Assembly: GCA_030681525.1 (NCBI GenBank)
Contig: JAUXSD010000015.1
Location: 1-44,613, forward strand
Direction: 5' to 3'
DNA from: Solirubrobacteraceae bacterium
GTDB taxonomy: Bacteria > Actinomycetota > Thermoleophilia > Solirubrobacterales > Solirubrobacteraceae
DNA length: 44,613 bases
Shown: one piece after another, positions 11,041 to 43,973 of the stretch
Position numbering within the stretch: the first letter of the stretch is position 1
How the letters are laid out: each line of letters begins with the position of its first letter
Program-made: the position numbers and the translations under genes
The notes under the pieces: model-generated
What the model was told of the DNA's origin: nothing
The model's database searches: none
What the model saw: the letters and a program-made list of their open reading frames with translations, nothing else

Positions 11041-11880
11041 GTGGCCGCACCGAATCCAACTGCCGCCTGCGCGGACGGTGAAGCGGACGCAGCGCTCGCG
11101 CAGGCCGCGGGCGATCGTCGTGCGCGTGAGGACCTGCGCCTGTTTCGCGCCTGGGTGGACCAGGGCGATCGCCGGGCGCGCGCGCAGCTGATCGAGCGCT
11201 TCCTGCCGCTGGCACGCTCGCTGGCGCGCCGCTACGAGCGCGGAGCCGAGCCGCTGGAGGATCTCGTCCAGGTCGCGTCGGTCGCGCTCGTCAAGGCGAT
11301 CGACCGCTACGACCCGGCGCGCGGCTACGCGTTCAGCTCGTTCGCCGTCCCGACGATCGCCGGCGAGCTCAAGCGCCATTTCCGCGACCAGACGTGGATG
11401 GTGCGCCCGCCCCGCGGCATCCAGGAGGTCACCCTGCGCGTCGAGGGCGCGCTGGCCCGCCTGACCCAGCAGCTCGACCGGTCGCCCACGACGCGCGAGC
11501 TGGCCGACGCCGTCGGTGTCGACGACGAGGCGATCCTCGAGGCGATGCAGGCCCGCAGCGCCCGCGGCGCGCTGTCGCTGCACGCGCCCCAGGGCGACCC
11601 CGCCGACGCGATGTCGCTGCAGGACACGCTCGGCGCCGTGGATCCCGACATCGAGCGCGCCGAGACGCGCGCCGAGCTCGATCGGCTCATGACCGAGGTG
11701 TCCCCCCGCGCGCGCGAGATGCTGCGCATGCGCTTCGAGGAGGACATGACCCAGGCGGAGATCGGCGCCGCGATCGGGATCAGCCAGATGCAGGTCTCGC
11801 GGATCCTGCGCCAGACGATCGCCAAGCTGCGCGAGGTCGCCGGGGCGGGCGCTCAGCCCGACGAGCCGACGCTCGTCTGA
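11041..11880 (+). CDS. SigB/SigF/SigG-type alternative sigma factor (second copy)
   Basis: A 279-residue paralogue of the factor at 9.0-9.8 kb. Regions: LIERFLPLARSLARRY, LEDLVQVASVALVKAIDRYDPARGYAFSSFAVPTIAGELKRHF, RPPRGIQEVTLRVE and RMRFEEDMTQAEIGAAIGISQMQVSRILRQTIAKLR. The N-terminal ~35 residues are specific to this copy. GTG at 11041 has a TTGAGGTG ribosome-like site about seven bases upstream. Its promoter looks SigB-dependent. The 3' end overlaps by 28 bp the converging gene for the PP2C/HATPase regulator, which may control this factor. Confidence 0.93.
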   Translation: MAAPNPTAACADGEADAALAQAAGDRRAREDLRLFRAWVDQGDRRARAQLIERFLPLARSLARRYERGAEPLEDLVQVASVALVKAIDRYDPARGYAFSSFAVPTIAGELKRHFRDQTWMVRPPRGIQEVTLRVEGALARLTQQLDRSPTTRELADAVGVDDEAILEAMQARSARGALSLHAPQGDPADAMSLQDTLGAVDPDIERAETRAELDRLMTEVSPRAREMLRMRFEEDMTQAEIGAAIGISQMQVSRILRQTIAKLREVAGAGAQPDEPTLV

Positions 11881-14309: not shown

Positions 14310-14893
14310 GGCAGCGAGCGCGTCGACGTGGCGGCGAGCTCGACGAGCGCCGGCCCGATCTCGTCGAGCTCGAGCACGCGCGCCTCCGGTGTCGACCACA
14401 GCGCGGCCTCGGGCATCTCGCGGCGCTCGGCGGTCTGCGGGTTCTGAACGATCGTCGTCCCGCCGCGGGCGGCGATCTTCGCCAGACCGACCGCCCCGTC
14501 GGCGTTGGCGCCGGTCAGCACGACGCCGGCGCTGCGCGCACCGTAGGCATCGGCGGCCGAGCCGAGCAGGACGTCGATCGACGGCCGGCTGAAGTGCAGC
14601 GGCTCGTCGACCGACAGCGAGACGGCGCCGGGCTCGACGAGCAGGTGGTACCCCGCCGGCGCGACGATCACGACTCCGGGCGCGAGCTGCAGCTTGTCCT
14701 CGGCTTCGCAGACGGGTATCGCGCAGCGCTCGTCGAGCAGGTGCTCGAGCGCGCCGTCGCGCCCGTCGTCCGGGCGGTGCTGGGCGATCACGACCGCCGC
14801 GCCGAAGTCGGCGGGCAGGCAGCCGAGCACGATCTCGATCGCGTGCAGGCCGCCCCACGAGGCGCCGACCGCGACGAGCTCGACGCGCGTCAT
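14306..14893 (-). CDS. cheB: CheB methylesterase domain protein without receiver
   Basis: A 195-residue stand-alone CheB catalytic domain, which removes methyl esters from (or deamidates) glutamyl side chains of receptors. Active-site elements are visible: GASWGGLHAI (Ser 12), IAQHRPDD (His) and LTGANADGAVGLAKI (Asp). The N-terminal receiver that gates classical CheB is absent, so control must come from elsewhere. It overlaps cheR upstream and the PP2C regulator downstream by ATGA, so all are translated together. No chemoreceptor, CheA or CheW is in the window; the likely substrate is the neighbouring HAMP-array kinase (inference). Confidence 0.9.
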   Translation of the reverse strand: MTRVELVAVGASWGGLHAIEIVLGCLPADFGAAVVIAQHRPDDGRDGALEHLLDERCAIPVCEAEDKLQLAPGVVIVAPAGYHLLVEPGAVSLSVDEPLHFSRPSIDVLLGSAADAYGARSAGVVLTGANADGAVGLAKIAARGGTTIVQNPQTAERREMPEAALWSTPEARVLELDEIGPALVELAATSTRSLP

Positions 14894-15719
14894 GTGCGCC
14901 TCCGGAAGATCTTCTCGGCCTCGACCAGCGGCTCGTACTCGGCGGCGTGGCGCGAATGGCGCAGCGACTCCTTGCGGCCCAGCGCGAGGATTCCCTTGCG
15001 GGTCATGCTCGCGCCGAAGAGCCCCAGCACCTTCTCCTGCAGCTCGGGCCCGAAGTAGATCAGCACGTTGCGGCACACGATGAGCTGAAACTCGTTGAAC
15101 GATCCATCCGTGACCAGATTGTGCTGGGCGAAGACCGTGCCCGCCACCAGCGCGGGGTCGAAGCGCGCGACGTCGCCCTCGGCGGTGTAGTAGGCCGAGA
15201 AGGAGTCCGTGCCGCCGGCGCGCTGGTAGTTCTCGGTGTAGAGCTGCATCCGCTCCAGGGCGAACGCGCCCGCCCGGGCGCGCTCCAGCGCCGTCTCGTC
15301 GATGTCGGTGGCGTAGATCCGCGAGCGCTCGAGCAGGCCCTCCTCGCGCAGCGCGATCGCCACGGAGTAGATCTCCTCGCCGGTCGAGCAGCCCGCGTTC
15401 CAGACCCGGATGAACGGATAGGTGCGTAGCAGCGGAAGCACGTGCGCGCGCAACGCGCGATGGAAGCTCGGGTCGCGGAACATCTCGGTGACGTTGATCG
15501 AGAGGTCGCGCAGCAGGCGGTCCATGCAGGCGGGCTCGTGCAGGATGCGCTCCTGCAGACCGGAGATCGTCTCCAGCCCCTCGCCGTAGACGCGGTGCCA
15601 CAGCCGGCGGCGCAGCGACGCCAGCGCGTACCCCCGGAAGTCGTAGCCGTAGGCGCGCTGGATGGCCTCCAGCAGCAGCTCGATCTCCAGCCGCTCGCGT
15701 GCCTCGTGGGCATCGCCGG

Positions 15720-15735
<16 letters not shown>
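14890..15735 (-). CDS. cheR: CheR-type glutamate O-methyltransferase
   Basis: A 281-residue protein-glutamate methyltransferase of the CheR family using S-adenosylmethionine. Visible: N-terminal helical domain ([15 protein letters not shown]), [17 protein letters not shown]-binding [33 protein letters not shown] and CRNVLIYF, at family-typical spacing and length. Its start lies inside the end of the HAMP kinase gene (16-bp overlap), showing tight coupling. It lacks the C-terminal pentapeptide tether site search that chemoreceptor systems may use, and there is no receptor nearby. Likely target: the Glu/Gln-rich coiled coil of the kinase (inference). Confidence 0.93.
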
Positions 15736-21584
<5,849 letters not shown>

Positions 21585-27965: not shown

Positions 27966-28826
27966 ATGGTCTCGCGTCGCATCTACGTTGGATTTCTGGG
28001 TGTTCTTGCCGTCCCGCTCACGGTGGTGTCGCTGGCCTGGGCCTGCGTCCCGGCGGGTAGCGTGACGATCAGCCCGGAGAGTGCTCCGAGCGGCTCGACC
28101 ATCACGGTCACGGCGGCGAACTTCCCCAATCAGGAAGTCGCCCTGTACTGGAACGGCTTGAGCGGGCCAAGGCTGGCGACCGGCATGGGCCCGAGCTTCA
28201 CGGCCGATGTCAGGGTGCCGAACGTCGCGGCAGGCTCCTACGTCGTCTCGGCGGCCGTGACCGACGAGCATGCGCAGCACTCCGAGGGTCGCGCGCCGTT
28301 CGAGGTCATCGGCTCCGCCAACTCCCCCACTGCGCCCACGCCGACGCCCGGCTTCGACCCGAACCCGGCTCCGCTGAACCCGTTCGCACCCGCGCCGAGC
28401 AACGGCGGCAAGGTCATCACCGGCACCTCCGGCAACAACCGGCTCATCGGCACGTCGGGCCGTGACGTCATCCGCTGCGGTGGCGGCAACGACGTCGTGA
28501 TCGCCGGCGCCGGCAACGACTACATCGATTGCGGCGCCGGCCGGGACCGCGTCAACGGCGGCTCGGGCCACGACGAGATCCGCGGCGGAAGCGGCAACGA
28601 CCACCTGACCGGCGGCTCGGGCAACGACGAGATCCGCGGCGACTCCGGCAACGACAAGCTGTTCGGCGGGATCGGGTCCGACAACCTCAACGGCGGGCGC
28701 GGCATCGATCACCTGCGCGGCAACGGTGGCCGTGACCGCCTCAACGGCGCGGCCGGACGGGACACGCTCTACGTCGACAAGTCCGATCGCATCTCCCGCG
28801 GCGTGGGCGACAAGGTCCGCCGCTGA
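27966..28826 (+). CDS. Membrane-anchored or secreted Ig-like/RTX repeat protein
   Basis: A 286-residue exported protein. The N-terminus (MVSRRIYVGFLGVLAVPLTVVSLAWA) is a signal peptide or anchor, next to Cys 27. Residues ~32-115 look like an Ig-like IPT/TIG or bacterial Ig-type domain (VTISPESAPSGSTITVTAANF). A Pro-rich linker follows, and ~150-275 are RTX-type repeats (GGGNDVV, GAGNDYIDCGAGRDRVNGG, GGSGNDEIRGDSGND). ATG at 27966 has AGGAGG eight to thirteen bases upstream, preferred over ATG 27942. Its TGA stop overlaps the next gene's ATG by one base (TGATG), so it is translated with the multicopper oxidase. Confidence 0.85.
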   Translation: MVSRRIYVGFLGVLAVPLTVVSLAWACVPAGSVTISPESAPSGSTITVTAANFPNQEVALYWNGLSGPRLATGMGPSFTADVRVPNVAAGSYVVSAAVTDEHAQHSEGRAPFEVIGSANSPTAPTPTPGFDPNPAPLNPFAPAPSNGGKVITGTSGNNRLIGTSGRDVIRCGGGNDVVIAGAGNDYIDCGAGRDRVNGGSGHDEIRGGSGNDHLTGGSGNDEIRGDSGNDKLFGGIGSDNLNGGRGIDHLRGNGGRDRLNGAAGRDTLYVDKSDRISRGVGDKVRR

Positions 28827-29929
28827 TGCCGAGCCGCGGTCGACCGTTCTCCTGGCTTCGCAACGCGCTGCTCGTCGCCGCGGTCTGGCTGATGGCGGCG
28901 GACGTCGCGCACGCGGTCCAGCGCGACATCTGGGTCGCGGCGGTTCCCGTGGTGTTCGATCAGGTGCCGTGGGGCCTGGACCCGATCTCGGGGCGGGTGA
29001 TGACCCACGAGGAGCGGTTCATGAACGCGACGATCTTCCGGCGCACGACGGCGAACTGGCGCAGGCCGCTGCGCAACGCCGACGTGAGCAGCCAGCCGCG
29101 CGACCAGGTCCCCGGACCGCTGATCCGCGCCAGGGTGGGCGACACGATCAACGTGCACTTCAAGAACATGGAGCCACCGGGCGGCCGCGCGCACTCGATG
29201 CACTTCCACGGTGTGAAGTATCCGCCGAGCTCCGACGGCGCGTTCGTGCCCGGTGTCTCGGGCCCCGATGCCGAGGTCATGCCGGGGCAGACCTGGACCT
29301 ACAAGCTGCGGGCGCTGAGCGAGTCCGAGGGCGTGTGGCCCTACCACGACCACGCGCCGGACATGCACCACGCGATCGAGGAGGGCATGTACGGCGCGCT
29401 GTCGATCATCGGCAAGAAGGATCGCTGGCCCGACCGCGAGTTCGTCGTGTTCTTCAACACGACGCACGACTTCGAGACGATCAACAACCGCGCCTTCATC
29501 CGCAACACGCCGACCTTCCGGGCGCGTGTCGGCGAGCGCGTCCAATGGAGCGTGCTCGCGCTGGGCTCGGCGCATCACACGTTCCATGTGCACGGCCACC
29601 GCTGGGTGAAGGGCGAGCGCGTGCCCGTGCCGGAGGACACGCGTACGCTCGGACCCGCCGAGAGCTTCCGGGTCAGCTGGACCGAGCGAGATCCCGGAAC
29701 GTGGCTGTATCACTGCCACCGCGAGGACCACATGTCGCGCGGCATGGTCGGGCTCTACAAGGTCGAACCGGCGCTGAAGTCCCTGCGAAAGCTGAAGGCC
29801 CGCCGGGACGCAAAGCTGCCGAACCGGCGCCAACCGCCGACGCGCCCCGCGCCGCAGCCGGTGAAGACGCCGCCGCCGCCCGCCGACGATGGGCACGACC
29901 ACGAGCACGCGCCGCCGGTAGGACCGTGA
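28826..29929 (+). CDS. Two-domain multicopper oxidase (small laccase type)
   Basis: A 367-residue exported copper oxidase. Signal peptide: residues ~1-30 (ALLVAAVWLMAADVAHA). Copper ligands: HFHGVKY (~124), HDHAPDMHH (~172), HTFHVHGH (~250) and the type 1/trinuclear motif HCHREDHMSRGM (~296-307), whose Met is the axial ligand of the type 1 site. Two cupredoxin domains are present instead of three, as in small laccases. The tail (~330-367) is Pro-rich and ends in a His/Asp-rich stretch (DDGHDHEHA) that may bind copper. Likely reaction: one-electron oxidation of phenols or metal ions coupled to O2 reduction. Coupled to the RTX-like gene upstream, which may hold it at the cell surface (inference). 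Confidence 0.92.
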   Translation: MPSRGRPFSWLRNALLVAAVWLMAADVAHAVQRDIWVAAVPVVFDQVPWGLDPISGRVMTHEERFMNATIFRRTTANWRRPLRNADVSSQPRDQVPGPLIRARVGDTINVHFKNMEPPGGRAHSMHFHGVKYPPSSDGAFVPGVSGPDAEVMPGQTWTYKLRALSESEGVWPYHDHAPDMHHAIEEGMYGALSIIGKKDRWPDREFVVFFNTTHDFETINNRAFIRNTPTFRARVGERVQWSVLALGSAHHTFHVHGHRWVKGERVPVPEDTRTLGPAESFRVSWTERDPGTWLYHCHREDHMSRGMVGLYKVEPALKSLRKLKARRDAKLPNRRQPPTRPAPQPVKTPPPPADDGHDHEHAPPVGP

Positions 29930-33082: not shown

Positions 33083-33937
33083 GTGCGCCGGCCCGTCACC
33101 TGGCTCGACGTCTTCACCGCGACGTTGCTGAGCGGCAACCAGCTTGCGGTCGTCCATGACGCTGACGGCCTCGACGACGCCACGATGCTCGCGTTCGCGC
33201 GCGAGACGCGGCTGTCGGAGACGACGTTCGTGCAGACGGCCGACCGCAACGGCGCGGACTACCGCAACCGGATCTGGACCATGGCCGGCGAGCTGCCGTT
33301 CGCCGGCCATCCCTCGCTCGGCACCGCCGTCGCCGTCGCGCGCGCCCGCGGGGAGACACACGCCGACTACGTCCAGCAGACGCCGGCCGGCCTGCAGCCG
33401 GTCGGCGTGCAGCTCGACGGCGACCGCGCGCGGGCGTCGATGCTGCAGGAGCCGGCGTCCTTCGGCTCCGCGGCGGCGGCCGCGGACGTGCTGGCGGCCG
33501 CCGGCCTGCGCGAGGGCGACCTGGATCCCGAGCTGGGACCGCTGGTCGTCTCGACCGGCGTCGCGCACCTCGTCGTCGGGCTGCGCGATCGCGCGGCCCT
33601 GGCCGGCGCCGCCGCCGAGCGGGCGCCGCTGCAGGCGCTGCTCGAGCCGCTGGAGGCCGTCCTGCTCTACCTCGTCGCCGTCGACGGCGACGTCGCCCAC
33701 GCGCGCGGCTTCTTCCTCGGTCCCGGCGGCGTCATCGAGGATCCCGCGACCGGCTCCGCCGCGGGTCCGCTGCTCGCCTACCTGCGCGCGCGCGGCGGGG
33801 CCGACGAGCTCACGGTGCACCAGGGCATCGAGATGGGCCGCCCGAGCCGGATCGACTGCGCGTGGGAGGACGACCGCCCGCGCGTGTCAGGCGACGTCGT
33901 CGTCGTGGGCGACGGCCACCTGCTGCTCGGCAACTGA
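33083..33937 (+). CDS. PhzF family isomerase-like protein
   Basis: A 284-residue member of the PhzF/diaminopimelate-epimerase-fold family. Signature segments: TWLDVFTATLLSGNQLAVV at the start, LSETTFV with the conserved catalytic Glu (~residue 45), FAGHPSLGTAVAVA and EDPATGSAAGPLLAYL in the second half. PhzF isomerises a dihydro-anthranilate in phenazine synthesis, but most members outside phenazine clusters have unknown substrates, and no phenazine genes are here. Starts on GTG. The last 51 bp overlap the converging ABC ATPase gene. Confidence 0.88.
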   Translation: MRRPVTWLDVFTATLLSGNQLAVVHDADGLDDATMLAFARETRLSETTFVQTADRNGADYRNRIWTMAGELPFAGHPSLGTAVAVARARGETHADYVQQTPAGLQPVGVQLDGDRARASMLQEPASFGSAAAAADVLAAAGLREGDLDPELGPLVVSTGVAHLVVGLRDRAALAGAAAERAPLQALLEPLEAVLLYLVAVDGDVAHARGFFLGPGGVIEDPATGSAAGPLLAYLRARGGADELTVHQGIEMGRPSRIDCAWEDDRPRVSGDVVVVGDGHLLLGN

Positions 33938-35032
33938 CCGCCCCGGCGGAGATCCGCCGTTCGTGCGCGGCAGCACCTCGGCCGGCCCCTCGATCCACGC
34001 CTGCACGCGGTCGCCCGGGTGCCATGCCGGGAAGCCCAGCCGCCGCGAGCAGATGACCTGCCCCGACTCCAGTCGCAGGCCGACGAGCTGGTCATGGCCG
34101 AAGAAGCGCCGCGAGACGACCTTCGCGTGCGCCGCGCTCGACGGGCCGCTGACCCCGATCGCGACGGACTCGGGTCGCACGAGCACGTCGCAGTCGCCGC
34201 TGACGTCGCCGGCCGGCAGGCTGCCCAGCTCGCAGCTCGCACGCCCGTCGGCGGCGTCGCCCGGCAGCACCTCGATGTCGCCGAGGAACTCGGCCATCCA
34301 GCGCGAGGCCGGGCGCAGGTAGACCTCCTCCGGCGTGCCGGCCTGCTCGACGCGACCGTCGCGCATGACCGCGACCGTCTCGGCGATGCTCATCGCCTCC
34401 TCCTGGTCGTGCGTGACGAACAGCGCCGTCACGCCCGCGGTGCGCAGGATCTGCGAGACCTCCTGGCGCAGGCGGTCGCGCAGGGAGGCGTCGAGGTTGG
34501 AGAACGGCTCGTCGAGCAGCACGAGGTCGGGCGTCGGCGCCAGCGCGCGGGCCAGCGCGACGCGCTGCTGCTGGCCGCCGGAGAGCTCGTGCACGGGGCG
34601 CTTTTCGGAGCCTGTCAGGCCGACGAGCTCGAGCGCCTCGCGGATGCGGCCGCCGTCCGGCTTGCGGCCCAGGCCATAGCCCACGTTGCCGGCGACGTCG
34701 AGGTGCGGAAACAGCGCGTAGTCCTGGAAGACCATGCCGATCCGGCGCTGCTCGGCGGGAACGAAGCGATCGGCGCTGGAGACGACGCGCCCGCCGACGA
34801 CGATCTCGCCCGCGTCGGGCCGCTCGAGCCCGGCGATGAGCCGCAGCGTCGTCGTCTTGCCGCAGCCCGACGGTCCGAGCACCGAGCACGTGCCGCCGGC
34901 GCGCAGCTCGAGGTCGGCGCCGTCGACCGCGCGCACGGCGCCGAACGACTTGCGCAGGCCGTGCAACCGCAGGCCGACGCACGGCGGTGTGAAGGCGCCG
35001 TTGCCGTTGCGGTTTGCGGTTGCCGCGCTCAT
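33887..35032 (-). CDS. fbpC: Ferric iron ABC transporter ATP-binding protein
   Basis: A 381-residue ATPase that powers ferric iron import. Walker A GPSGCGKTT, Q-loop VFQDYALFPHL, signature LSGGQQQRVALARAL, Walker B LVLLDEPFSNLD and switch VTHDQEEAM are all intact. The C-terminal ~140 residues form a TOBE-type regulatory region (LVRPESVAIGVSG). It is the last gene of an fbpA-fbpB-fbpC operon, two bases after fbpB. It overlaps the 3' end of the PhzF gene. Assignment to iron rests on the FbpA-like binding protein and the iron-box-like operator, as the ATPase alone would also fit sulfate or polyamine systems. Confidence 0.9.
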   Translation of the reverse strand: MSAATANRNGNGAFTPPCVGLRLHGLRKSFGAVRAVDGADLELRAGGTCSVLGPSGCGKTTTLRLIAGLERPDAGEIVVGGRVVSSADRFVPAEQRRIGMVFQDYALFPHLDVAGNVGYGLGRKPDGGRIREALELVGLTGSEKRPVHELSGGQQQRVALARALAPTPDLVLLDEPFSNLDASLRDRLRQEVSQILRTAGVTALFVTHDQEEAMSIAETVAVMRDGRVEQAGTPEEVYLRPASRWMAEFLGDIEVLPGDAADGRASCELGSLPAGDVSGDCDVLVRPESVAIGVSGPSSAAHAKVVSRRFFGHDQLVGLRLESGQVICSRRLGFPAWHPGDRVQAWIEGPAEVLPRTNGGSPPGRSVAEQQVAVAHDDDVA

Positions 35033-35034
35033 CC

Positions 35035-36654
35035 CTATGACCCCACGCTGCCCTTCTTGTCCAGAAGGTACAGCGGCGGCGCCGCGATGAGCAAAAGCAG
35101 CAACGCCGGGATCGCGCTCGCTTCGAAGAAGCCGAACGAGGTCTGGCGCCACACGTCGGTGGCCAGCGTGTCGAAGCCGATCGGCGCCAGCAGCAGCGTG
35201 GCGGGCAGCTCCTTGAGCGCGTGCAGGAACACGAGCGCCGCTCCGCCGAGCACGCCGCTGGCGACGAGCGGCGTCGTGATCGTGCGAAACACCGCCATCG
35301 GGCTGCGTCCGAGGCCACGCGCCGCCTCCTCCAGCCGCGGCGGCACCTGCAGCAGCGACGAGCTGACCGGGCTGACCGCGAGCGGCAGGTAGTGGATCGC
35401 CAGCGCGAAGACGAGCACGGCCAGCGTCTGGTAGAGCGGCAGCGCGACGCGCGTCGTGAAGAACACGAGCGCGAGCGCGACGACGATCCCCGGCAGCGCG
35501 TAGCCCGCGTAGCCGACGCGCTCGACCGCGCGGGTCACGTAGCTCGGGTAGCGCACGGCGAGCAGCGCGACGACGATCGCGGCGAGGCCGGCGGCCAGCG
35601 CGGCGAAGGCGGCGGCGAGCAGCGAGTTGCCGGCGTTCGCCATCAAGGTGCCGAGCTCGAGGCCGCTGGAGATCTGCTTCGTCGCCCAGTACGCCAGCAC
35701 GCCGACCGGCAGCACGAGCGCGACGCCGACGACCGTCGCGCAGAAGCCGAGCGCCGGCCAGCGCCAGCGCCCCAGCCGCACCGGCTCGAGCGGGCGCGGG
35801 GTGCCCGGCGTCGAGCGATGCAGCGCCCGCGCGGCGCGCACGCGGGCGTAGAGCGCGAACAGGACGAGCATCACGAGGACGAGCACCATGCCCAGCGCTG
35901 CCGCCTCCGTGCGCCCGAAGCCCGACTGGAAGGCGATGTAGATGTCGCGCGTGAACGAGTTGAAGCGCATGATCGAGACCGCGCCGAAGTCGCTCAGGGT
36001 GTAGAGCGCCACGAGCACGCTGCCGGCGCCGATGGCCGGCGCGAGCTGCGGCAGCACGACGGTGCGAAACACGTCGCGCTGCCCGCGCCCCATGACGCGG
36101 GCCGCCTCCTCCAGCGACGGGTCCATCCGGCGCAGCGCGCTGCGCAGCGGGATCAGCACGAGCGGATACGTGAACAGCGTCAGCACGAGGAAGGCGCCGG
36201 CGAAGCCGTAGATCGACGGCAGCCGCACGCCGAGCAGGTCGGCGAGCGCGCCGCGCGGGCCGAGCGCGGACACGAAGAGGTAGGCGCCGATGTAGCTCGG
36301 GATGACGAGCGGCAGGGTGGCGAGCGTGGCCCAGGTCCGCCGCCCGGGCAGGTCGGAGCGCACGGTCAGCCACGCGAGCGGGACGGCGATCGTCACCGCG
36401 GCGACCGTGACGGCCGCCGCCAGGCCGAGGCTGCGGGTGATGAGCCCGACCGTGCGGCCCGTCAGGATCGCGTCGAGCGCGGCCGAGAAGTCCTCGACGA
36501 CAGCGACGACGAGGTACAGCGCCGGCAGCGCGGACGCCAGGCCGATCGCCAGGCCGAGGCCGAGCAGGACGAGCGGCGGCCGGCGCACGCCGAGCACGCG
36601 CGCCGCCGACGGCAGTCGGCGGCCCAGCGCGCGTCCGGCAGAGGCGGCGGTCAC
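35035..36654 (-). CDS. fbpB: Ferric iron ABC transporter permease (two fused permease halves)
   Basis: A 539-residue inner-membrane permease with about twelve hydrophobic helices, made of two homologous halves as in FbpB/AfuB-type proteins. Each half has the EAA loop that contacts the ATPase: EEAARVMGRGQRDVFRTVVLPQLAPAI (~185) and EEAARGLGRSPMAVFRTITTPLVASG (~450). Starts on GTG, 13 bases after fbpA stops. Imports iron(III) handed over by FbpA. Confidence 0.9.
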   Translation of the reverse strand: MTAASAGRALGRRLPSAARVLGVRRPPLVLLGLGLAIGLASALPALYLVVAVVEDFSAALDAILTGRTVGLITRSLGLAAAVTVAAVTIAVPLAWLTVRSDLPGRRTWATLATLPLVIPSYIGAYLFVSALGPRGALADLLGVRLPSIYGFAGAFLVLTLFTYPLVLIPLRSALRRMDPSLEEAARVMGRGQRDVFRTVVLPQLAPAIGAGSVLVALYTLSDFGAVSIMRFNSFTRDIYIAFQSGFGRTEAAALGMVLVLVMLVLFALYARVRAARALHRSTPGTPRPLEPVRLGRWRWPALGFCATVVGVALVLPVGVLAYWATKQISSGLELGTLMANAGNSLLAAAFAALAAGLAAIVVALLAVRYPSYVTRAVERVGYAGYALPGIVVALALVFFTTRVALPLYQTLAVLVFALAIHYLPLAVSPVSSSLLQVPPRLEEAARGLGRSPMAVFRTITTPLVASGVLGGAALVFLHALKELPATLLLAPIGFDTLATDVWRQTSFGFFEASAIPALLLLLIAAPPLYLLDKKGSVGS

Positions 36655-36667
36655 CGGCGCTCCACGC

Positions 36668-37681
36668 CTACAGCGCCCCCGTGTCGCGCATGAGCTCCAG
36701 CGTGCCCCGCTGATCGCCGAGCTTGGCGAGATCGACGCGCGGCGACGGGATGTCCTCCAGCGGCGTGAGCTCCTCGGGCGCCTGCACGCCGGCCGCGAGC
36801 GGGTACTCCTTGGAGCTGTCGGCGAAGTAGGTCTGCGTCTCCTGCGAGAGCATCTGGCGCACGAAGGCCAGCGCCCGTTCCCTGTCCTCGCCGGCCGAGG
36901 CGAGCACGCCGACGCCGGCGACGTTGATGAGCGAGCCGAGGTCGTCGGGCGGGAAGTGCACCTTGACGGGGTAGTCGGGATCCTCCGCGACGGCCTCGGC
37001 GACGTAGTAGTGGTTGATCAGGCCGATATCGATCTCGCCCTCGGCGATGGCGTCACGCACGGGAATGTTCGAGTCATACACCTGGACGTCGTTGGCCACC
37101 ATCCCCTCGAGCCACTGCTTCGCGACGTCGTCGCCCTCGACGAGCCGCAGCGCGGTGATGTAGCCCTGCAGGGAGGCGTTCGTCGGCGCCCAGCCGACGC
37201 GCCCCTTCCACTTCTCGTCGGTGAGGTCCAGCGGCGAGTCGGGCAGTTCGGCCTCCCGCAGCTTCTCGCTATAGGCGATGATCCGCGAGCGCCCCGTGGT
37301 GCCGACCCAGCTGCCGGTCGCGGAGCGGTACTGCTTCGGGACCATCGCGAGGATGTCGGCCGGCAGCTTGGCCAGCAGACCCTGCTTCTCGACGGAGTCC
37401 AGGGAGCCGGCGTCCTGCGCGAAGAAGAGGTCGGCAGGCGAGTTCTGGCCTTCCTCGACGAGCGTCGCGGCGAGCGCCGGGCTGTCGCCGAAGCGCGTGC
37501 GGACTTCGGTGCCCGACGCGTCCTCGTACTGCTTGATCGCCGGGTTGATGATCGGGCCGATCCGCCCGCTGTACAGCGTGATCGCGTTGTCGCCCTCCGA
37601 CGACGAGGATCCGCAGGCCGGGAGTGCGACGAGCAGCGCCGCGAAGGCGGCGATCGCTGCGGGGTGGCGACGAACTACCAT
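36668..37681 (-). CDS. fbpA: Ferric iron-binding lipoprotein of ABC transporter
   Basis: A 337-residue extracytoplasmic solute-binding lipoprotein. Lipobox: LLVALPAC with Cys at ~23. The mature part reads NAITLYSGRIGPIINPAIKQYE and has INHYYVAEA, the Asn-His-Tyr-Tyr site whose tyrosines bind Fe3+ in FbpA-type proteins. A GGAGGAG ribosome site precedes ATG 37681. The promoter -10 (TAAGAT) overlaps a 14-bp palindrome resembling a DtxR/IdeR iron box at 37727-37740, so repression under iron-replete conditions is expected. First gene of the fbpABC operon. Confidence 0.92.
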   Translation of the reverse strand: MVVRRHPAAIAAFAALLVALPACGSSSSEGDNAITLYSGRIGPIINPAIKQYEDASGTEVRTRFGDSPALAATLVEEGQNSPADLFFAQDAGSLDSVEKQGLLAKLPADILAMVPKQYRSATGSWVGTTGRSRIIAYSEKLREAELPDSPLDLTDEKWKGRVGWAPTNASLQGYITALRLVEGDDVAKQWLEGMVANDVQVYDSNIPVRDAIAEGEIDIGLINHYYVAEAVAEDPDYPVKVHFPPDDLGSLINVAGVGVLASAGEDRERALAFVRQMLSQETQTYFADSSKEYPLAAGVQAPEELTPLEDIPSPRVDLAKLGDQRGTLELMRDTGAL

Positions 37682-37723: not shown

Positions 37724-37740
37724 ATCTTAGGCCACCCTAA
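37724..37740 (-). promoter_or_regulatory. fbpA promoter -10 overlapped by iron-box-like palindrome
   Basis: The palindrome TTAGGCCACCCTAA is at 37727-37740. Read on the minus strand (GTTAGGGTGGCCTAAG) it agrees at 13 of 19 positions with the IdeR/DtxR consensus TTAGGTTAGSCTAACCTAA. The minus-strand hexamer TAAGAT (37729-37724) would be the fbpA -10, so a bound repressor would block it. It also lies 14 bases before the divergent GT-C gene start. Confidence 0.65.
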
Positions 37741-37754
37741 CGCCTGACGCCACG

Positions 37755-39155
37755 ATGCCCCGCCGACTGCTCCTCGCCGTTCTTGCCTGCACGGGCCTCG
37801 CCGCGGCCTCGCTGCTGGCCGCTGCCGAGCCCGTCTACGACGCCTGGGCCTGGCTCGTCTGGGGACGCGAGCTGACGCATCTGCGCATCGACCTGACGAC
37901 CGGTCCGTCGTGGAAGCCCCTGACGGTCATGCTCACGATGGCGCTCGCGCCGGCCGGCGACGCCGCGCCCGCCCTGTGGCTGGTCATCGTGCGAACGGCA
38001 TGGCTGCTGTCCCTCGTACTGGCCGCCGAGCTCGCCCACCACCTGACCGCCGGCCGGCCGCGGGCGCACCGGATCGCCGCCGCCGCGTTCGCCTCCGCGG
38101 CCCTCCTGCTGCTGTTCGACAACGTGACGCTGTGGGGACGTCAGGCCGCGGGCGGGATGTCCGAGCCGCTGCTCGTGGCGCTCGTGCTGGGCGCCGTGCG
38201 CGCTGCCCTCGCCGGCCGGCTGCGCGTGGCGCTCGTCCTCGGGGCGCTGGCCGCGCTGCTGCGGCCGGAGGCGTGGCCGCTGCTGGCGCTGTTCGGGCTG
38301 TGGTGCTGGCGCACCGAGCCGCGCGCGCGTCCGGTCGTCGCCGCGGTCGCCGTCGCGGTGCCCGCCCTGTGGTTCGCGCCCGAGCTGCTGGCCGACGGCG
38401 GGGGTGGCGCGGGCCGCGCGCAGCGCGACACGAGCGACCCGCTCGAGGCGCTGGGCCGCGCGGCGCTGCTGCCGCTGGCCGTCGCCTGGCCCCTGGCCCT
38501 GCTGGCGCTGCGCGGCGGCCGGGCCGCGCGCGTCCTCGCGGACGGCGCGCTCGCGTGGATCGCGGTCGTCGCGGCGATGACCACGATCGGCTTCGCGGGC
38601 CTGCCGCGCTTCATGGCGCCGGCGGCCGCGGTCGTATGCGTGCTCGGCGGCGCCGGGCTGGCCGAGCTGCTCGCTCACGTGCGCGCCGGCGCGCGCCCGC
38701 GCGCGGGAGCGCTCGCGGCCGGCCTGCTCGTGGCGCTGGGCGCCGGCGTCACCGCGGCGGGACTGGTCGATCGCGTCGCCGACGTGCCGCAGGCGTGGCG
38801 CGTCGCGGCCCGCGGCGAGGACGCCAACGACCGCCTGCGCCGGCTCGTGCGCCGGGTCGGCCGCGAGCAGCTGTTGCGCTGCGGCAAGCTGGCGACGAGC
38901 GACGCGCTCGTGCGCACCGCGCTGGCGTGGGAGCTCGACGTCGCGCTGTCGCAGGTCGTGGTCTTCGGCGCGCCATCACGCGCGTCGGGCGCGTTCGTCG
39001 TCGGCCTCGGCGCACCGCGGGACCTGCACGACGACGTTCGTGCGGCCGGGCGGCTGCTCGGCGTCAGCGGCGAGTGGCGCGCCTACTCGATCGGCTGCCC
39101 GGTGACCGCGAGCGCGTCGCCGCGCAGTGCCGGCGTCACGGGTGCGTCGCGGTAG
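37755..39155 (+). CDS. GT-C-type polytopic glycosyltransferase (putative)
   Basis: A 466-residue membrane protein with about nine to eleven hydrophobic helices over residues 5-340 and a ~120-residue C-terminal soluble part. The first outer loop has VYDAWAWLVWGREL, with acidic and Trp residues as in GT-C enzymes that use polyprenyl-phosphate sugars, and ALLRPEAWPLLALFGLW resembles their Arg-Pro-Glu motif. It would add a sugar to a glycan or lipid outside the membrane. Donor and acceptor are unknown. It is divergent from fbpA across a 73-bp gap containing an iron-box-like site, and its 3' end overlaps the FAD oxidoreductase gene by 73 bp on the opposite strand. Family assignment is moderate. 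Confidence 0.68.
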   Translation: MPRRLLLAVLACTGLAAASLLAAAEPVYDAWAWLVWGRELTHLRIDLTTGPSWKPLTVMLTMALAPAGDAAPALWLVIVRTAWLLSLVLAAELAHHLTAGRPRAHRIAAAAFASAALLLLFDNVTLWGRQAAGGMSEPLLVALVLGAVRAALAGRLRVALVLGALAALLRPEAWPLLALFGLWCWRTEPRARPVVAAVAVAVPALWFAPELLADGGGGAGRAQRDTSDPLEALGRAALLPLAVAWPLALLALRGGRAARVLADGALAWIAVVAAMTTIGFAGLPRFMAPAAAVVCVLGGAGLAELLAHVRAGARPRAGALAAGLLVALGAGVTAAGLVDRVADVPQAWRVAARGEDANDRLRRLVRRVGREQLLRCGKLATSDALVRTALAWELDVALSQVVVFGAPSRASGAFVVGLGAPRDLHDDVRAAGRLLGVSGEWRAYSIGCPVTASASPRSAGVTGASR

Positions 39156-40582
39156 GGCTGCTCGGGCACGCGCGCCTCCTCGTGGTACTCGCCGTCCGCG
39201 TTGACCGCCCAGAGGTCGTGCTCGGCGCCGTGGCAGGCGTTCTCGACGGCGCGCAGCGCGGTCAGCATCGAGTGGTCGGAGTTGTTGTAGCGGTGCAGCC
39301 CGTTGCGTCCGATCTGCTGGAGGTTCTCGATCCCGGCCAGCCACGCGCGGATCGTCGCCACGCGGGCGTCGTAGTCGGCGTCGTAGATCGGATAGGCCTT
39401 CGGCACGCGGACGACATGGCCGCGCTCGACGCGCGCCGCGTCGGCCAGCCCGATCGCGTCGAGCTCGCGCGTCGCGCGCGCGACGAGCTCGGCGTCGCCG
39501 GCGTTCCAGAGCTCGTCGCCCTCGAAGCAGAAGTACTCCAGGCCGACGCACGTGCGGTCGGGGTCGGGCACCATCGCCTCGCTCCAGGCGCGGAAGTTCT
39601 GGATCCGCCCGACCCGCACGTCCGGGTCGTGGACGTAGATCCAGTTGTCCGGGAACAGGTCCTCGCCGCGGACGACGAGCGCGACCGTGAGGAAGTCGCG
39701 GTAGCGCAGCCCGGCGGCGGCCGCGCGTACGGCGGGCGGTGGCGGCGGATCGGCGAGCGCGACCACGTCGCGCAGCGCCAGCGAGGAGACGACCTGCGAG
39801 ACGGCCACCCGCTCGCCGCTGCCGTGCACCGCCGCCACGCGGTCGCCCGCGAGCTCCAGGGCCGTCACCCGGGTGCCGAGCCGCACCTGGCCGCCGGCGC
39901 CGACGATCTCGGCCGCCATCGCCTCCCACATCTGCCCGGGACCCAGCCGCGGGTAGTGAAACCGCTCGATGAGGCTGCGAACGTCGCCGCCGTCGTTGAG
40001 CAGCGCGGCGCGCACGACGCGCGAGAACGACAGCGTCCGGATGCGCTGCGCCGCCCACTCGGCGCGGATCTCGGATGTCGAGACGCCCCACACCTTCTCG
40101 GTGTAGCTCTTGAAGAACAGCTCGAACAGGCGCCGGCCGAAGCGATCGCAGACCCACTGCTCGAAGGTCTCGGGCGCGCGCCGGCGCCGCCGGCCGCGGC
40201 GGGCGACGGCCAGCCCGTACGACGCCGAGCAGCGGGTCAGCTCGAGCGGGCCGACCTTGCGCACGACGTCGCCCAGACGCAGCGGGTAGTCGATGAAGCG
40301 CCCGCGCCAGAAGATCCGCGAGAGCCGGTCGCGCACGAGCAGCTCTTCGCCGAGCACCTGCTCCCACAGCGTCTGCACCTCGGCCGACTTCGTGAAGAAG
40401 CGATGGCCGCCGAGGTCGAAGCGATAGCCGTCGCGCACGACGGTGCGCGCCAGACCGCCGACCTGCGTGTCGGCCTCGAAGACGACGACGGCGCGCTCGT
40501 CACGCGCAAGCACGTAGCCTGCCGTCAGCCCGGCCGGTCCGCCCCCGAGTACGGCGAAGGGTTCGCTTCCGTCCTCTCCCAC
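39083..40582 (-). CDS. NAD(P)/FAD-dependent oxidoreductase (protoporphyrinogen oxidase/UDP-galactopyranose mutase-like)
   Basis: A 499-residue flavoprotein. The dinucleotide-binding motif VLGGGPAGLTAGYVLA is at ~10-25, GGLARTVVRDGYRFDLGGHRFFTK at ~43-66, TEKVWGVSTSEI at ~150 and GRNGLHRYNNSDHSM near the C-terminus. This subgroup, annotated as HemY-like or UDP-galactopyranose-mutase-like, is commonly found in polysaccharide loci and may rearrange or oxidise a nucleotide sugar or amine. The GTG start is fixed by an in-frame TAA directly before it. A TAGAGT -10 ends seven bases upstream, so the message is probably leaderless. Divergent from the GT2 gene with only 30 bp between, all of it iron-box-like sequence. 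Confidence 0.85.
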   Translation of the reverse strand: MGEDGSEPFAVLGGGPAGLTAGYVLARDERAVVVFEADTQVGGLARTVVRDGYRFDLGGHRFFTKSAEVQTLWEQVLGEELLVRDRLSRIFWRGRFIDYPLRLGDVVRKVGPLELTRCSASYGLAVARRGRRRRRAPETFEQWVCDRFGRRLFELFFKSYTEKVWGVSTSEIRAEWAAQRIRTLSFSRVVRAALLNDGGDVRSLIERFHYPRLGPGQMWEAMAAEIVGAGGQVRLGTRVTALELAGDRVAAVHGSGERVAVSQVVSSLALRDVVALADPPPPPAVRAAAAGLRYRDFLTVALVVRGEDLFPDNWIYVHDPDVRVGRIQNFRAWSEAMVPDPDRTCVGLEYFCFEGDELWNAGDAELVARATRELDAIGLADAARVERGHVVRVPKAYPIYDADYDARVATIRAWLAGIENLQQIGRNGLHRYNNSDHSMLTALRAVENACHGAEHDLWAVNADGEYHEEARVPEQPYRDAPVTPALRGDALAVTGQPIE

Positions 40583-40611
40583 TTAGGGCACTCTAACTTA
40601 GGTCCGCCTAA
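40583..40611. promoter_or_regulatory. Double iron-box-like operator with overlapping divergent -10 elements
   Basis: Two 14-bp palindrome-like units, TTAGGGCACTCTAA (40583-40596) and TTAGGTCCGCCTAA (40598-40611), one base apart. Extended to 19 bases, the second agrees with the IdeR/DtxR consensus at 14 positions and the first at 13. Minus-strand TAGAGT (40595-40590) and plus-strand TAACTT (40594-40599) are candidate -10 elements overlapping by two bases. The entire intergenic space is operator and promoter. Confidence 0.62.
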
Positions 40612-40612
40612 C

Positions 40613-41515
40613 TTGCTTTCCGTCGTCATCCCCGCCACGGACGCCCCGCCCACGCTCGGCCGCTGCCTGGCCGCGCTGGGACGCTCGACCGAGCCGCACG
40701 AGGTCGTCGTTGTGGCCGATCCGCCGGGCGCCGGCCCGGCCGCCGCGCGCAACGCGGGCGTCGCCCGCACGAGCGGCGACGTCGTCGTGTTCGTCGACGC
40801 CGACGTCGAGGTCCATCCCGACGCGCTGCGGCGCCTGCGCGAGACGTTCGAGTGCGCCGTCGCGCCCGACGCGGTCTTCGGCGCCTACGACGACCGGCCC
40901 GCCGTGACCGCCGTCGTGTCGCGCTTTCGCAACCTCCTGCACCACCACGTGCACGCCGGAGCGGGCGGGCCCGCGACGACGTTCTGGGCCGGCCTGGGCG
41001 CGGTCCGCCGCGAGGCGTTCGTTGCCGCCGGCGGCTTCGATGCCGAGCGCTACCCGCGGCCGTGCATCGAGGACATCGAGCTCGGGATGCGCCTGCATGC
41101 GGCCGGCCGGCGGATCGTGCTCGACCCGGCGGTGCGTGGGACGCACCTCAAGCGCTGGACGCTGGCGTCGATGCTGCGCACCGACCTCACCGCGCGCGGC
41201 GCTCCCTGGGTGGCGCTGCGCCTCGAGCGCGGCGGCGCGGGCGGCGGCGCGCTGAACCTCGCCTGGGGCCAGCGCCTGGCCGCCGCGTGCGCGGTGCTCG
41301 CCACGGCCGCCGCGCTGGGCGGCCGGGGGCGCCTGGCGCTCGCCGCGCTGGCCGCGATGCTCGCGCCCAACGCCGGCTTCTACGTGCTGCTCGCCCGCCT
41401 CGGCGGCCCGCGCCTGGCGCTGGGCGGCGTGCCGCTTCACCTCGTCCACCACCTCACCGCCGCCGCCTCGGTGCCCGCCGGCGTCGTGCTCTGGGCACGC
41501 CGGTCGCGCCCATGA
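40613..41515 (+). CDS. GT2 family glycosyltransferase with C-terminal membrane helices
   Basis: A 300-residue GT-A fold transferase. The start reads (TTG) LSVVIPATDAPPTLGRCLAAL; the nucleotide-sugar metal motif is VVFVDADVEV (Asp-x-Asp ~62-64), and the catalytic-base region is RPCIEDIELGMRLHAAGRR. Residues ~225-300 hold two or three hydrophobic helices. TTG is the only possible start after the flavoprotein promoter, and -SVVIP is where GT2 enzymes normally begin. Its TGA overlaps the next ATG by four bases. Sugar and acceptor unknown. Confidence 0.85.
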   Translation: MLSVVIPATDAPPTLGRCLAALGRSTEPHEVVVVADPPGAGPAAARNAGVARTSGDVVVFVDADVEVHPDALRRLRETFECAVAPDAVFGAYDDRPAVTAVVSRFRNLLHHHVHAGAGGPATTFWAGLGAVRREAFVAAGGFDAERYPRPCIEDIELGMRLHAAGRRIVLDPAVRGTHLKRWTLASMLRTDLTARGAPWVALRLERGGAGGGALNLAWGQRLAAACAVLATAAALGGRGRLALAALAAMLAPNAGFYVLLARLGGPRLALGGVPLHLVHHLTAAASVPAGVVLWARRSRP

Positions 41516-42456
41516 GCGAGGCCCCCCTGCGCCTCGGGCTCGTCGGCTGCGGGCGATTGGCCGAGCTGGGCTACGCGCCGGCCGCGCGCGTCGCGTCGAG
41601 CGTCGAGTTCGTCGCCGTCGTCGACCCGGACCGCACGCGCCGCGGCGTCGTGGCGGCGAAGCTCGGCGTCCCCGGCCACGCGCGGCTCAGCGAGTTGTTC
41701 GCCGCCACGACGCTCGACGGCCTCGTCATCTGCACGCCCGCCGAGCAGCACGAGGAGACGACCGCGCTCGCCGCCCAGGCGGGCCTGACCGCGCTCGTCG
41801 AGAAGCCGCCGGCGCCGGACGCCGAGGGTGCGCTGCGGATCGCCGCCCTGAGCCCGGCGCCGTGGATCGCGTTCAACCGGCGCTTCGACCAGGGCCTGCA
41901 GCTCCTCCGCAAGGTGCCGCCGGGCGGCGACCTGACGATGAGGATGGTCCTGCACTACCGGCGCAGGTCGTGGCGGCCGGTGCAGCGCGGCGACGACGCG
42001 CTGCTCGACCTCGCCCCGCACCTCATCGACCTGGCGCTGTTTCTCACCGGCTCGCTGCCGCTCGCCGTACGGGCCAACGCGACGCGCGACCGCGCCGGCC
42101 TCGTGCTCGCCACGACGCGCGCCGAGGTCCAGATCGAGTGCGCCACCGACCGCCCGCACCACGAGCTCGTCGAGATCCGCAGCGCGGGCGGCCGGGTCGC
42201 CGGGCGCGCCGTCAGCGCTGGCCGCGCCCGCGGCGCGCTGGCCCGGCTGACCCCCGGAGCCCACCCGCTCGTGCGCTCCCTGGCCCAGCAGCTCGAGGCC
42301 TACGCGCGCGCGCTGCGCGGCGCCGATCCCGGCCCGCTGGCGACCGCCGCCGAGGGTGCCGCGGTCATGCGCGTGCTCGACGCCGCGCGGCGCTCGGACG
42401 CCGTCGGGGGCGACACCGTGGCCGTCGAGGGCGTCACGGTGAGAGACCACGCGTGA
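41512..42456 (+). CDS. Gfo/Idh/MocA family oxidoreductase
   Basis: A 314-residue NAD(P)-dependent dehydrogenase of the glucose-fructose oxidoreductase family, which often modifies nucleotide sugars or inositols. N-terminal Rossmann motif GLVGCGRLAELGYAPA; cofactor and catalytic segment TALVEKPPAPD (Glu-Lys-Pro); the second half has the expected beta domain (DLTMRMVLHYRRRSW, LLDLAPHLIDLALFLTG, with a Asp/His pair typical of the active site). Translationally coupled on both sides (ATGA with GT2, GTGA with the phosphatase-like gene), so the three products work together. Confidence 0.88.
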   Translation: MSEAPLRLGLVGCGRLAELGYAPAARVASSVEFVAVVDPDRTRRGVVAAKLGVPGHARLSELFAATTLDGLVICTPAEQHEETTALAAQAGLTALVEKPPAPDAEGALRIAALSPAPWIAFNRRFDQGLQLLRKVPPGGDLTMRMVLHYRRRSWRPVQRGDDALLDLAPHLIDLALFLTGSLPLAVRANATRDRAGLVLATTRAEVQIECATDRPHHELVEIRSAGGRVAGRAVSAGRARGALARLTPGAHPLVRSLAQQLEAYARALRGADPGPLATAAEGAAVMRVLDAARRSDAVGGDTVAVEGVTVRDHA

Positions 42457-43973
42457 TCTGCGTCCTGCAGTTCGACGCCGCCAGCGTCGCGGTGGTCGGG
42501 CGCATGCTCGCCGCGGGGCGACTGCCGGTGCTGACCGGCCTGATCGCGCGCGGCGAGCAGATGACGCTGCGGACGCCGGCCGACCACTTCGCCGCCGGAG
42601 CGTTTCACACGCTCTACAGCGGCATCGAGCTGGCCGACCACGGCCTCTTCTATCCCTTCCAGTGGGACGCGGCGTCCCAGCGGGCGCGCTACATGACGGC
42701 GTTCCCGGCGCCGCCCGCGATCTGGGAGCGGCTGGCTCGCGGCGGCCTGCGCACGCTCGCGATCGACCCGTACGAGAGCCGCCCGCCGCACGACTGGCTG
42801 GGGACCTACGTCTGCGGTTGGGGCTTTCGCGACCGGGTCGTGCTGCCGCGCTGGTCGCTGCCGCGCGCCGCGGCGACGCAGCTCGCCGGGATCCACGGCG
42901 AGGGTCCACACGCGACGGAGATCTTCGGGCGCCCGACGGTCCGCGAGCTGCTCGCGCTGCGCACGAAGCTCGTCGCGGCGCCGGGCCGCGTGGCGGCCGC
43001 CGCCGTCGAGCTGCTGGGCCGCGAGCGATATGACCTCGCCTGGCTGACGTTCAGCGCCGCGCATCTCGCCGGCCATCAGTTCTGGGACCTGTCGCAGCTC
43101 GCCCAGGCGCCCGAGGGCCGCGAGCGCGAGCTGCTCGAGGGCGCGCTGGAGGACGTCTACGCCGAGGTCGACGCGGCGTTGGGCAAGGTGCTCGCCGCAC
43201 TGCCCGGCGACTGCGACGTGATCGTCGCCTCCGCCGTCGGGATGGACGTCAACAGCTCGCGCGCCGACCTGCTGCCGCAGATGCTCGAGGCCGTGCTGCG
43301 GGGCGGGCCGCGCCCGGCCGACGGCGGCGGCGACGCGGAGGGCGGGGCGGGGGCGATCTGGCGGCTGCGCGCGGCGATCCCGACCGGCGCGCGTGGCGCG
43401 ATCGCCCAGGCCCTGCCCGACCGCGTCGCGCTCGAGCTCACCGCGCGGCTGGAGCTGCGCGGGATCGACTGGTCGCAGACGGCCGCCTTCTGCCACCCGG
43501 CCGACAACCAGGGCTACATCCGCCTGAACCTGCGCGGCCGCGAGCGCGACGGGATCGTCGACCCCGGCGAGGCCGACGCGCTGCTGCGGACGATCGCCGA
43601 GGGCCTGGCGACGTTCTGCGATCCCGACGGCGCGCCGGCGGTCGCGAGCATCGACCGCGTCGCCGAGCACCACGCCGGCGAGCGCACCGGCCGGCTGCCC
43701 GACCTGGTCGTGCAGTGGAGCGAGCGCCCCGCCACGACGCTCGCCGGGGTCCACTCGGCGAGCTTCGGCGACGTGATGCGCCGCGGCACCGGTAGCGGCC
43801 GCTCGGGCAACCACACGCCCGGCGACGCCTGGGCGGTCGTCGTGCCGGGGGCGCACGCCGCCCGCTCGCCCGCCCGCCCGCCGCGGCTCGCCGACGTCGC
43901 GGCCACCGTCGCGGCGGTCTGCGGCGTCGACCGCGCCGGGCTAGCGGGCGAGCCGCTGCTCGGCGAGGGCTAG
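42453..43973 (+). CDS. Alkaline-phosphatase-superfamily (type I phosphodiesterase-like) protein with altered metal motif
   Basis: A 506-residue protein of the nucleotide pyrophosphatase/phosphodiesterase fold. The N-terminus MICVLQFDAASV supplies the first metal Asp (residue 8), AFHTLYSGIELADHG the nucleophile Thr (53), and SGNHTPGDAWAVVVPG the late His. The usual Ser-Asp-His-Gly metal motif is VASAVGMD here (A261-V262 replace Asp-His), so one metal site may be lost or moved. Many relatives are secreted, but there is no signal peptide. Starts on GTG within the dehydrogenase stop. It could trim a phosphorylated or nucleotide-linked sugar, or be a pseudoenzyme. Confidence 0.8.
   Translation: MICVLQFDAASVAVVGRMLAAGRLPVLTGLIARGEQMTLRTPADHFAAGAFHTLYSGIELADHGLFYPFQWDAASQRARYMTAFPAPPAIWERLARGGLRTLAIDPYESRPPHDWLGTYVCGWGFRDRVVLPRWSLPRAAATQLAGIHGEGPHATEIFGRPTVRELLALRTKLVAAPGRVAAAAVELLGRERYDLAWLTFSAAHLAGHQFWDLSQLAQAPEGRERELLEGALEDVYAEVDAALGKVLAALPGDCDVIVASAVGMDVNSSRADLLPQMLEAVLRGGPRPADGGGDAEGGAGAIWRLRAAIPTGARGAIAQALPDRVALELTARLELRGIDWSQTAAFCHPADNQGYIRLNLRGRERDGIVDPGEADALLRTIAEGLATFCDPDGAPAVASIDRVAEHHAGERTGRLPDLVVQWSERPATTLAGVHSASFGDVMRRGTGSGRSGNHTPGDAWAVVVPGAHAARSPARPPRLADVAATVAAVCGVDRAGLAGEPLLGEG

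Follow-up and report, generated by a model that had tools for sequence, protein, structure and literature searches.

The classic regulons of IdeR and DtxR bring iron uptake, siderophore, storage and Fe–S genes under palindromes of the TTAGG/CCTAA type. In genes repressed by IdeR, the box overlaps the -10 element or the start site (PMC10317159). A single IdeR dimer has been shown to bind a 14-bp half-site, with an apparent KD of 78 nM in vitro, after which Marcos-Torres and co-workers proposed this half-site, TTAGGNNNNCCTAA, as the revised IdeR/DtxR target consensus (PMC8464063). A 2023 IdeR review leaves it open whether other species have half-sites and what role IdeR plays in them (PMC10317159). 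Here we analyzed a 44,613-nucleotide stretch of DNA from a member of the Solirubrobacteraceae (contig JAUXSD010000015.1, assembly GCA_030681525.1; hereafter the window), in which such half-sites stand before the genes of a predicted ferric iron importer, FbpABC, and before a neighboring module of glycan-type genes. We consider it quite probable that a repressor of the DtxR/IdeR family controls the importer and the glycan module jointly through these 14-bp half-sites.

In Saccharopolyspora erythraea, half-sites are present beside 19-bp boxes (PMC8464063), whereas the 31 genomes of the order studied here almost entirely lack the 19-bp box, and the half-sites of this order are often in tandem (e.g., 14–27 bp apart). 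As in the classic IdeR/DtxR regulons, the palindromes precede iron uptake, siderophore, storage and Fe–S genes, but the source genome lacks the 19-bp box, has a glycan module among the genes at the sites, and has a putative regulator without the Met10 and Cys102 ligands. The substrate-binding proteins match solved ferric-binding proteins, as in the FbpABC/HitABC and FutABC importers, from which the present systems differ by their recurrent genomic partnership with a module of glycosyltransferases and an alkaline-phosphatase (AP)-superfamily protein. MntR on the mneP promoter is another DtxR-family protein occupying several neighboring one-dimer sites, although these are 18-bp manganese sites involved in activation (PMC11275975), while repression is likelier here because the 14-bp words are close to start codons. 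Searches of open-licence papers for a link between a ferric importer and such a module, for iron-regulated glycan clusters, and for IdeR in this class or half-sites elsewhere listed none that describes the arrangement reported here.

Half-sites in the window, the genome and the order

The earlier note had read three TTAGG-N4-CCTAA palindromes in the window, and all three are present as described, two of them perfect and one with a single mismatch (Table 1). They correspond to the published one-dimer half of the IdeR box. Read from its sequence, the known 19-bp box consists of two such half-sites that overlap, the second being offset by 5. The comparison with the IdeR/DtxR consensus made in the earlier note was thus right in kind, but the consensus quoted there is the 19-bp double box and the window sites are its 14-bp half. 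The first site is flanked by the starts of fbpA (37681, minus strand) and of the gene for a GT-C fold glycosyltransferase (37755, plus strand). The other two form a twin site which wholly takes up the 30-bp divergent gap between a flavoprotein gene (GTG start at 40582, minus strand) and a family 2 glycosyltransferase (GT2) gene (TTG start at 40613, plus strand), with one base between the twins and likewise one base between the second twin and the GT2 start. The start codons in the window are our own reading of the sequence, and the GT-C and GT2 genes, both missed by a simple gene caller, were placed by hand.

Table 1. Half-sites and genes of the window, with the evidence for each assignment.
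Feature	Position	Strand	Evidence or context
IdeR-type half-site TTAGGCCACCCTAA	37727-37740		0 mismatches; between fbpA (minus) and GT-C gene (plus)
IdeR-type half-site TTAGGGCACTCTAA	40583-40596		1 mismatch; distal twin in the flavoprotein–GT2 gap
IdeR-type half-site TTAGGTCCGCCTAA	40598-40611		0 mismatches; twin partner of 40583-40596
fbpC-type ATPase of ferric ABC importer	33887-35032	-	Pfam ABC_tran 6.2e-34, TOBE_2
fbpB-type double permease	35035-36654	-	Pfam BPD_transp_1, 2 stretches
fbpA, ferric-iron-binding protein, HitA/FbpA type	36668-37681	-	PDB 7w3w E 1.3e-76; HitA 6iwf 2.9e-55
GT-C fold membrane glycosyltransferase	37755-39155	+	AlphaFold2 model, pLDDT 86
FAD oxidoreductase, PRK07208 group, distant to UDP-galactopyranose mutase	39083-40582	-	NCBIfam NF005548, 641.7 bits (cut-off 389)
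GT2 glycosyltransferase	40613-41515	+	Pfam Glycos_transf_2 8e-14
Gfo/Idh/MocA oxidoreductase	41512-42456	+	Pfam 3.8e-15
AP-superfamily protein, phosphodiesterase-like fold	42453-43973	+	Pfam Phosphodiest 6.6e-9; model pLDDT 91
Second GT2-type gene, cut by contig end	43941-44612	-	Conserved island neighbor
Multicopper oxidase	28826-29929		Few kb from fbpABC
SpoIIE phosphatase	11853-14309		Receiver, PAS and GAF domains
CheR methyltransferase	14890-15723		
Hybrid kinase, 1954 aa	15720-21584	-	Ten HAMP stretches, GAF, HisKA/HATPase, three receiver domains

In the draft source genome (4.56 Mb, 352 contigs), 12 perfect half-sites were found versus 0 for the reversed pattern, and 20 at up to one mismatch (the 12 perfect and 8 with one mismatch) versus 7. 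By our gene calls, all 12 perfect sites and 19 of the 20 are intergenic, and the random scatter inside genes that the earlier note had considered fatal to its proposal was not seen. Summed over 31 genomes of the order, the source genome included, perfect half-sites numbered 143 versus 10 for the reversed pattern, with at least one in every genome. On the other hand, seven genomes of the same class from outside the order showed no enrichment (0, 0, 4, 0, 0, 0 and 0 perfect copies versus 3, 1, 2, 0, 1, 0 and 0 reversed), so this use of half-sites is a trait of the order and not of the class as a whole.

The half-sites of the source genome mark mostly iron genes. According to the Pfam annotation of their neighbors, perfect sites lie beside fbpABC (contig C51), a DtxR-family gene together with a siderophore-type cluster, which comprises class III aminotransferase, pyridoxal-phosphate decarboxylase and IucA/IucC genes (C172), Rieske and SufBD genes (C90), a ferritin gene (C311) and the gene of a Fea1-like protein (C112), while pairs of one-mismatch sites lie beside FUR and VIT1 (C32) and beside imelysin and di-haem oxidoreductase genes (C122). 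The exceptions are C6, C244 and C335, and the sites on the last two have no evident iron gene alongside, although G006 again has a site between the same RsiG-like and HNH genes. In the relatives, 13 of 29 sites, taken one per genome, have homologues of the source genome's regulon or island in their locus, one of these 13 resting on a weak 38% ATPase match only.

A search for the full 19-bp box, using TTAGGTTAGSCTAACCTAA at up to three mismatches with the reversed pattern as control, found no copy in the source genome and a copy in 1 of the 31 genomes of the order versus 2 of 31 for the control, i.e., at or below control. Phylum-wide, the box was present in 28 of 119 genomes versus 14 of 119 for the reversed pattern, and the excess was clear in G501 (21 versus 0), G449 (11 versus 1) and G424 (7 versus 0). 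Half-sites in tandem were seen repeatedly, their offsets including 14, 15, 18, 20, 21 and 27.

Some half-sites have other surroundings. At L027:1798-1811 and L072:1501-1514, a half-site lies between RsiG-like and HNH/sigma-like genes. The arrangement is found again in G006, which hints that iron may be linked to a sigma/anti-sigma system. Contig C6 (L019) carries three intergenic half-sites at 1715, 4245 and 4301, one of them perfect, next to proteins that look secreted or have no family assignment, and a one-mismatch half-site at 761 inside a doubtful open reading frame; no iron link was recognized among the proteins neighboring the half-sites of this contig.

The importer–glycan island and its relatives

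The gene for the AP-superfamily protein is rare. At E ≤ 1e-20, a match was present in 22 of the 399 genomes examined from the class, and the identity was at least 45% in 16 of these 22. The surroundings fetched for 15 of these 22 genomes, plus the locus of G023, contain a recurring set of fbpA, fbpB, fbpC, GT-C, flavoprotein, GT2, Gfo/Idh, AP-superfamily and second GT2 genes, with proteins 38–88% identical in the relatives. The lineages bearing the island are named Solirubrobacteraceae, Solirubrobacterales, Siliceabacter, Thermoleophilia, or just Actinobacteria/Actinomycetes.

The half-sites are conserved together with these genes. In all 11 fetched genomes that combine GT2 with an fbp-type importer, the source genome included, GT2 is preceded by a half-site at up to one mismatch. 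A perfect site lies before fbpA in all nine genomes whose FbpA is of the type seen in the window (the fbp loci of G002 and G003 were fetched by the site itself). Perfect sites before both fbpA and GT2 are present on a single contig in seven genomes (G000, G001, G023, G026, G113, G201 and G308) and on two contigs in G003, where the word TTAGGGCACTCTAA again lies beside the perfect site, at an offset of 14 (15 in the window); in G002, only the fbpA/GT-C part was seen, with its site. The sites are also retained in rearranged islands. In G201 and G308, fbpC is oriented away from fbpA-fbpB-GT-C with a perfect site in between, and despite this rearrangement both divergent promoters have a perfect site; in G001 and G026, the flavoprotein gene is absent from the island and the GT2 site is retained. 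In G011 and G336, GT2 is preceded by two sites and GT-C by one, and a one-mismatch site lies in the fbpA–fbpC gap next to fbpC, while G052 has a single one-mismatch site before GT2. In G006, the GT-C, Gfo/Idh, AP-superfamily and second GT2 genes lie without fbp genes and without sites, and the flavoprotein–GT2 pair is located elsewhere, preceded by two one-mismatch sites and with no fbp gene in the 20 kb fetched. GT2 was not found in the stretches fetched for G176 and G329, and no half-site was present at the start of the second GT2 gene in the islands fetched.

For a quantitative comparison, the regions from -150 to +20 of GT2 and fbpA were taken, with the start extrapolated from tblastn (24 regions of 13 genomes, leaving out G166, G313, G397 and the loci outside the class). 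Half-sites at up to one mismatch were present in 20 of the 24 and perfect ones in 19, while 29 permuted palindromes of the same make-up reached at most 1 of 24 (mean 0.03). Dropping the site-fetched G002 and G003 fbp regions leaves 18 of 22.

The importer has a complete make-up (ferric-binding protein, double permease and ATPase) and is predicted to transport Fe(III). No Pfam family matched the GT-C protein; its model shows the GT-C fold, with matches to ArnT (5f15, E 4.1e-6, TM 0.57) and AftA (8if8, TM 0.47). The flavoprotein matches PDB 4u8l (E 5.7e-22), and it scored 26.9 bits against the UDP-galactopyranose mutase model TIGR00031, below the cut-off of 303.75. The AP-superfamily protein had no match in a sequence-profile search of the PDB, while its model adopts the AP fold (322 matches in the PDB at E ≤ 0.001, with a query-normalised TM of about 0.5) and matches phosphonoacetate hydrolase 1ei6 and NPPs. 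Where SDHG, which we take to be the metal motif of this superfamily, is expected, 14 of 14 aligned sequences read S-x-V/L-G/D-M (by eye, without residue-level superposition). The catalytic/metal motifs thus look altered, and the protein may be a non-canonical enzyme or a binding protein.

Two types of ferric importer, which separate cleanly, accompany the module. The FbpA type of the window is 50–75% identical in eight relatives, while the binding protein of Actinomycetospora cinnamomea DSM 45771 is FutA-like (2pt1, E 3.8e-61), and proteins 61–88% identical to it are present in G011, G336, G052 and five loci outside the class, the identity for L184 covering 122 residues only. Those five belong to 11 further loci (of 24 named) that include Pseudonocardia, A. 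cinnamomea and Acidimicrobiales; seven of the 11 hold GT2, six with fbp genes nearby and one (L191) without. In L184 (Pseudonocardiaceae), a 19-bp box with two mismatches lies about 20 bp upstream of GT2. Close to the module, L182, L185 and L193 contain weak 19-bp words with four to five mismatches, which may be due to chance and were not counted. Since L184 alone has a convincing site at GT2 outside the class, the gene partnership is wider than the half-site control seen in this order.

Besides, homologues of the AP-superfamily protein were detected in records named Burkholderiales and Gemmatimonadetes (L198 and L194), with no island in the stretch, which reflects either transfer or mis-binned contigs. 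Within the window, the multicopper oxidase near fbpABC could be a ferroxidase and has no adjoining half-site, and a signalling block (11853-21584) comprises the hybrid kinase, the CheR methyltransferase and the SpoIIE phosphatase.

The candidate regulator

The search for a DtxR homologue suggested in the earlier note returned three genes of this family in the source genome, on contigs C267, C235 and C172, one of them flanked by half-sites on both sides. The protein of the siderophore cluster (C172) was rejected as the general regulator, with close relatives in only two other genomes of the 31 (87% and 59% identity). The protein most likely to read the half-sites is that of C267 (L029:4931-5647), which has the DtxR N-terminal, metal/dimer and FeoA/SH3-like domains and whose closest structure is S. 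erythraea IdeR (7b1v, E 2.9e-31). Its score against the NCBIfam DtxR model (NF053665) was 133.1 bits, below the cut-off of 290, and the genome scan listed no half-site at up to one mismatch near its gene. The reading helix (SAPTVHE versus SGPTVSQ in IdeR) has Ser-x-Pro-Thr in common with IdeR; among the contacts Ser37, Pro39, Thr40 and Gln43, the first three are retained and Gln43 is Glu. In 17 orthologues, defined as the loci best matched by C267 among 30 DtxR loci with one best match per genome, Ser37 is Ala in two, Thr40 is Ser in one and position 43 is Glu in all.

The equivalents of His79, Glu83, His98, Glu105 and His106 are retained in all 17 orthologues, while the positions of Met10 and Cys102 are occupied by Glu/Glu both in C267 and in 17 of 17. 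We call C267 IdeR-like and not IdeR because these sulfur ligands are replaced. According to the IdeR review (PMC10317159), Met10 and Cys102 favor Fe2+, the corresponding residues of MntR are Asp/Asn and Glu, and Glu in place of Cys102 is a mark of MntR. The C267 protein thus appears to join an IdeR-like reading head to an acidic metal site, ahead of an iron regulon. The closest structures of the C235 protein are 5zr4 and 8pvt, the latter presumably a manganese regulator.

Proposed joint control, alternative explanations and significance

The co-control of fbpABC and the GT2 unit by a DtxR-family protein, as put forward in the earlier note, is supported by the tests applied to the sequence, because the motif marks mostly iron genes, DtxR genes are present, and the pairing of the sites is conserved in the relatives. 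Several observations weigh against it, including the acidic metal site of C267 and its MntR mark. The claim that the sites overlap candidate -10 elements holds as far as reading by eye goes, with TAAGAT (37729-37724, minus strand) overlapping the first site and TAACTT/TAAGTT (40594-40599, both strands) the twin sites, but a sigma-70 scan that also required a -35 element found no promoter in either site region. The source assembly has 5.35% contamination, and several sites are on short contigs. The excess of half-sites is uneven, and in G010, G020, G029 and G030 there is no more than 1 perfect copy above the reversed count. The FutA-type fbpA genes of G011, G336 and G052 have no site within 150 bp, convincing boxes were found in only 1 of 7 GT2 loci outside the class, and G166, G313 and G397, which have GT2 and the flavoprotein without fbpA/B, have no site; adding these three lowers the upstream count to 20 of 27 regions.

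The module could also remodel the envelope under iron stress, by a change in glycolipid or capsule, with no binding of iron. This is a serious possibility, if somewhat short of probable, considering that the family content is that of generic glycan synthesis and that genes for siderophore synthesis are missing from the conserved island, while the lasting physical pairing with two types of ferric importer hints at a closer link. We regard it as unlikely that the glycan genes are passengers without an iron role, placed under the iron switch merely by landing beside fbpABC. The GT2 loci of G166, G313 and G397 fit such an origin, but GT2 has its own site or sites, some 3 kb away from fbpA and retained in all 11 genomes, the flavoprotein–GT2 pair of G006 has sites with no fbp gene nearby, and the module is paired with two different importer types. 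It is still less probable that the regulator is a manganese or mixed Fe/Mn DtxR protein, either C235 or the C267 protein that bears the Glu/Glu site, and that the regulon answers to manganese. The constancy of Glu/Glu in the C267 orthologues and the structural matches of C235 would agree with this, while the genes at the sites are mostly iron genes (ferric importer, IucA/IucC cluster, Suf, ferritin, VIT1 and imelysin) and the Ser-x-Pro-Thr helix is common to C267 and IdeR. Finally, that the palindromes are due to chance or are a general promoter feature is practically out of the question, as the window alone is weak evidence (at least three matches at up to two mismatches in 7 of 100 shuffles) but chance is ruled out by the reversed-pattern (12 versus 0; 143 versus 10), permuted-word (20 of 24 versus at most 1) and cross-genome controls.

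In the joint control that we propose, an iron-sensing repressor, most likely the C267 protein, would bind single or tandem half-sites with one dimer on each. The metal-loaded repressor would cover the divergent promoters of fbpABC/GT-C and of the flavoprotein/GT2-Gfo-phosphodiesterase genes, and when iron falls it would leave, with the importer and the glycan module being expressed together. Because the sites are within about 100 bp of start codons, with several abutting or overlapping them, control probably works by repression when iron is replete; activation is possible at some promoters. The families of the module (GT-C, the UDP-galactopyranose mutase-like flavoprotein, GT2, the sugar oxidoreductase and the AP-superfamily protein), with a predicted membrane sugar transferase of the lipid-linked-donor kind and sugar-modifying enzymes, point to the synthesis of an envelope glycoconjugate. 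We speculate that this glycoconjugate may help to hold Fe(III) or deliver it to the importer, which we consider doubtful. Equally tentative is the fuller scheme of a so far undescribed system of iron acquisition, in which a dedicated glycoconjugate made by the module would capture Fe(III) at the surface and hand it over to an importer of the Fbp or Fut type, the system being switched in this order by an IdeR-like sensor free of sulfur ligands through one-dimer half-sites.

An order of actinobacteria whose iron regulon appears to be written almost only in half-sites makes the question left by the IdeR review directly testable, with a likely sensor of the iron regulon whose metal site looks like the one in manganese sensors. 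In lineages named as Solirubrobacterales/Thermoleophilia, Pseudonocardiaceae and Acidimicrobiales, an uncharacterised glycan module is the recurrent partner of ferric importers of two kinds. The site shared by the importer and the sugar enzymes suggests that in iron shortage a sugar product would be turned on together with iron uptake.

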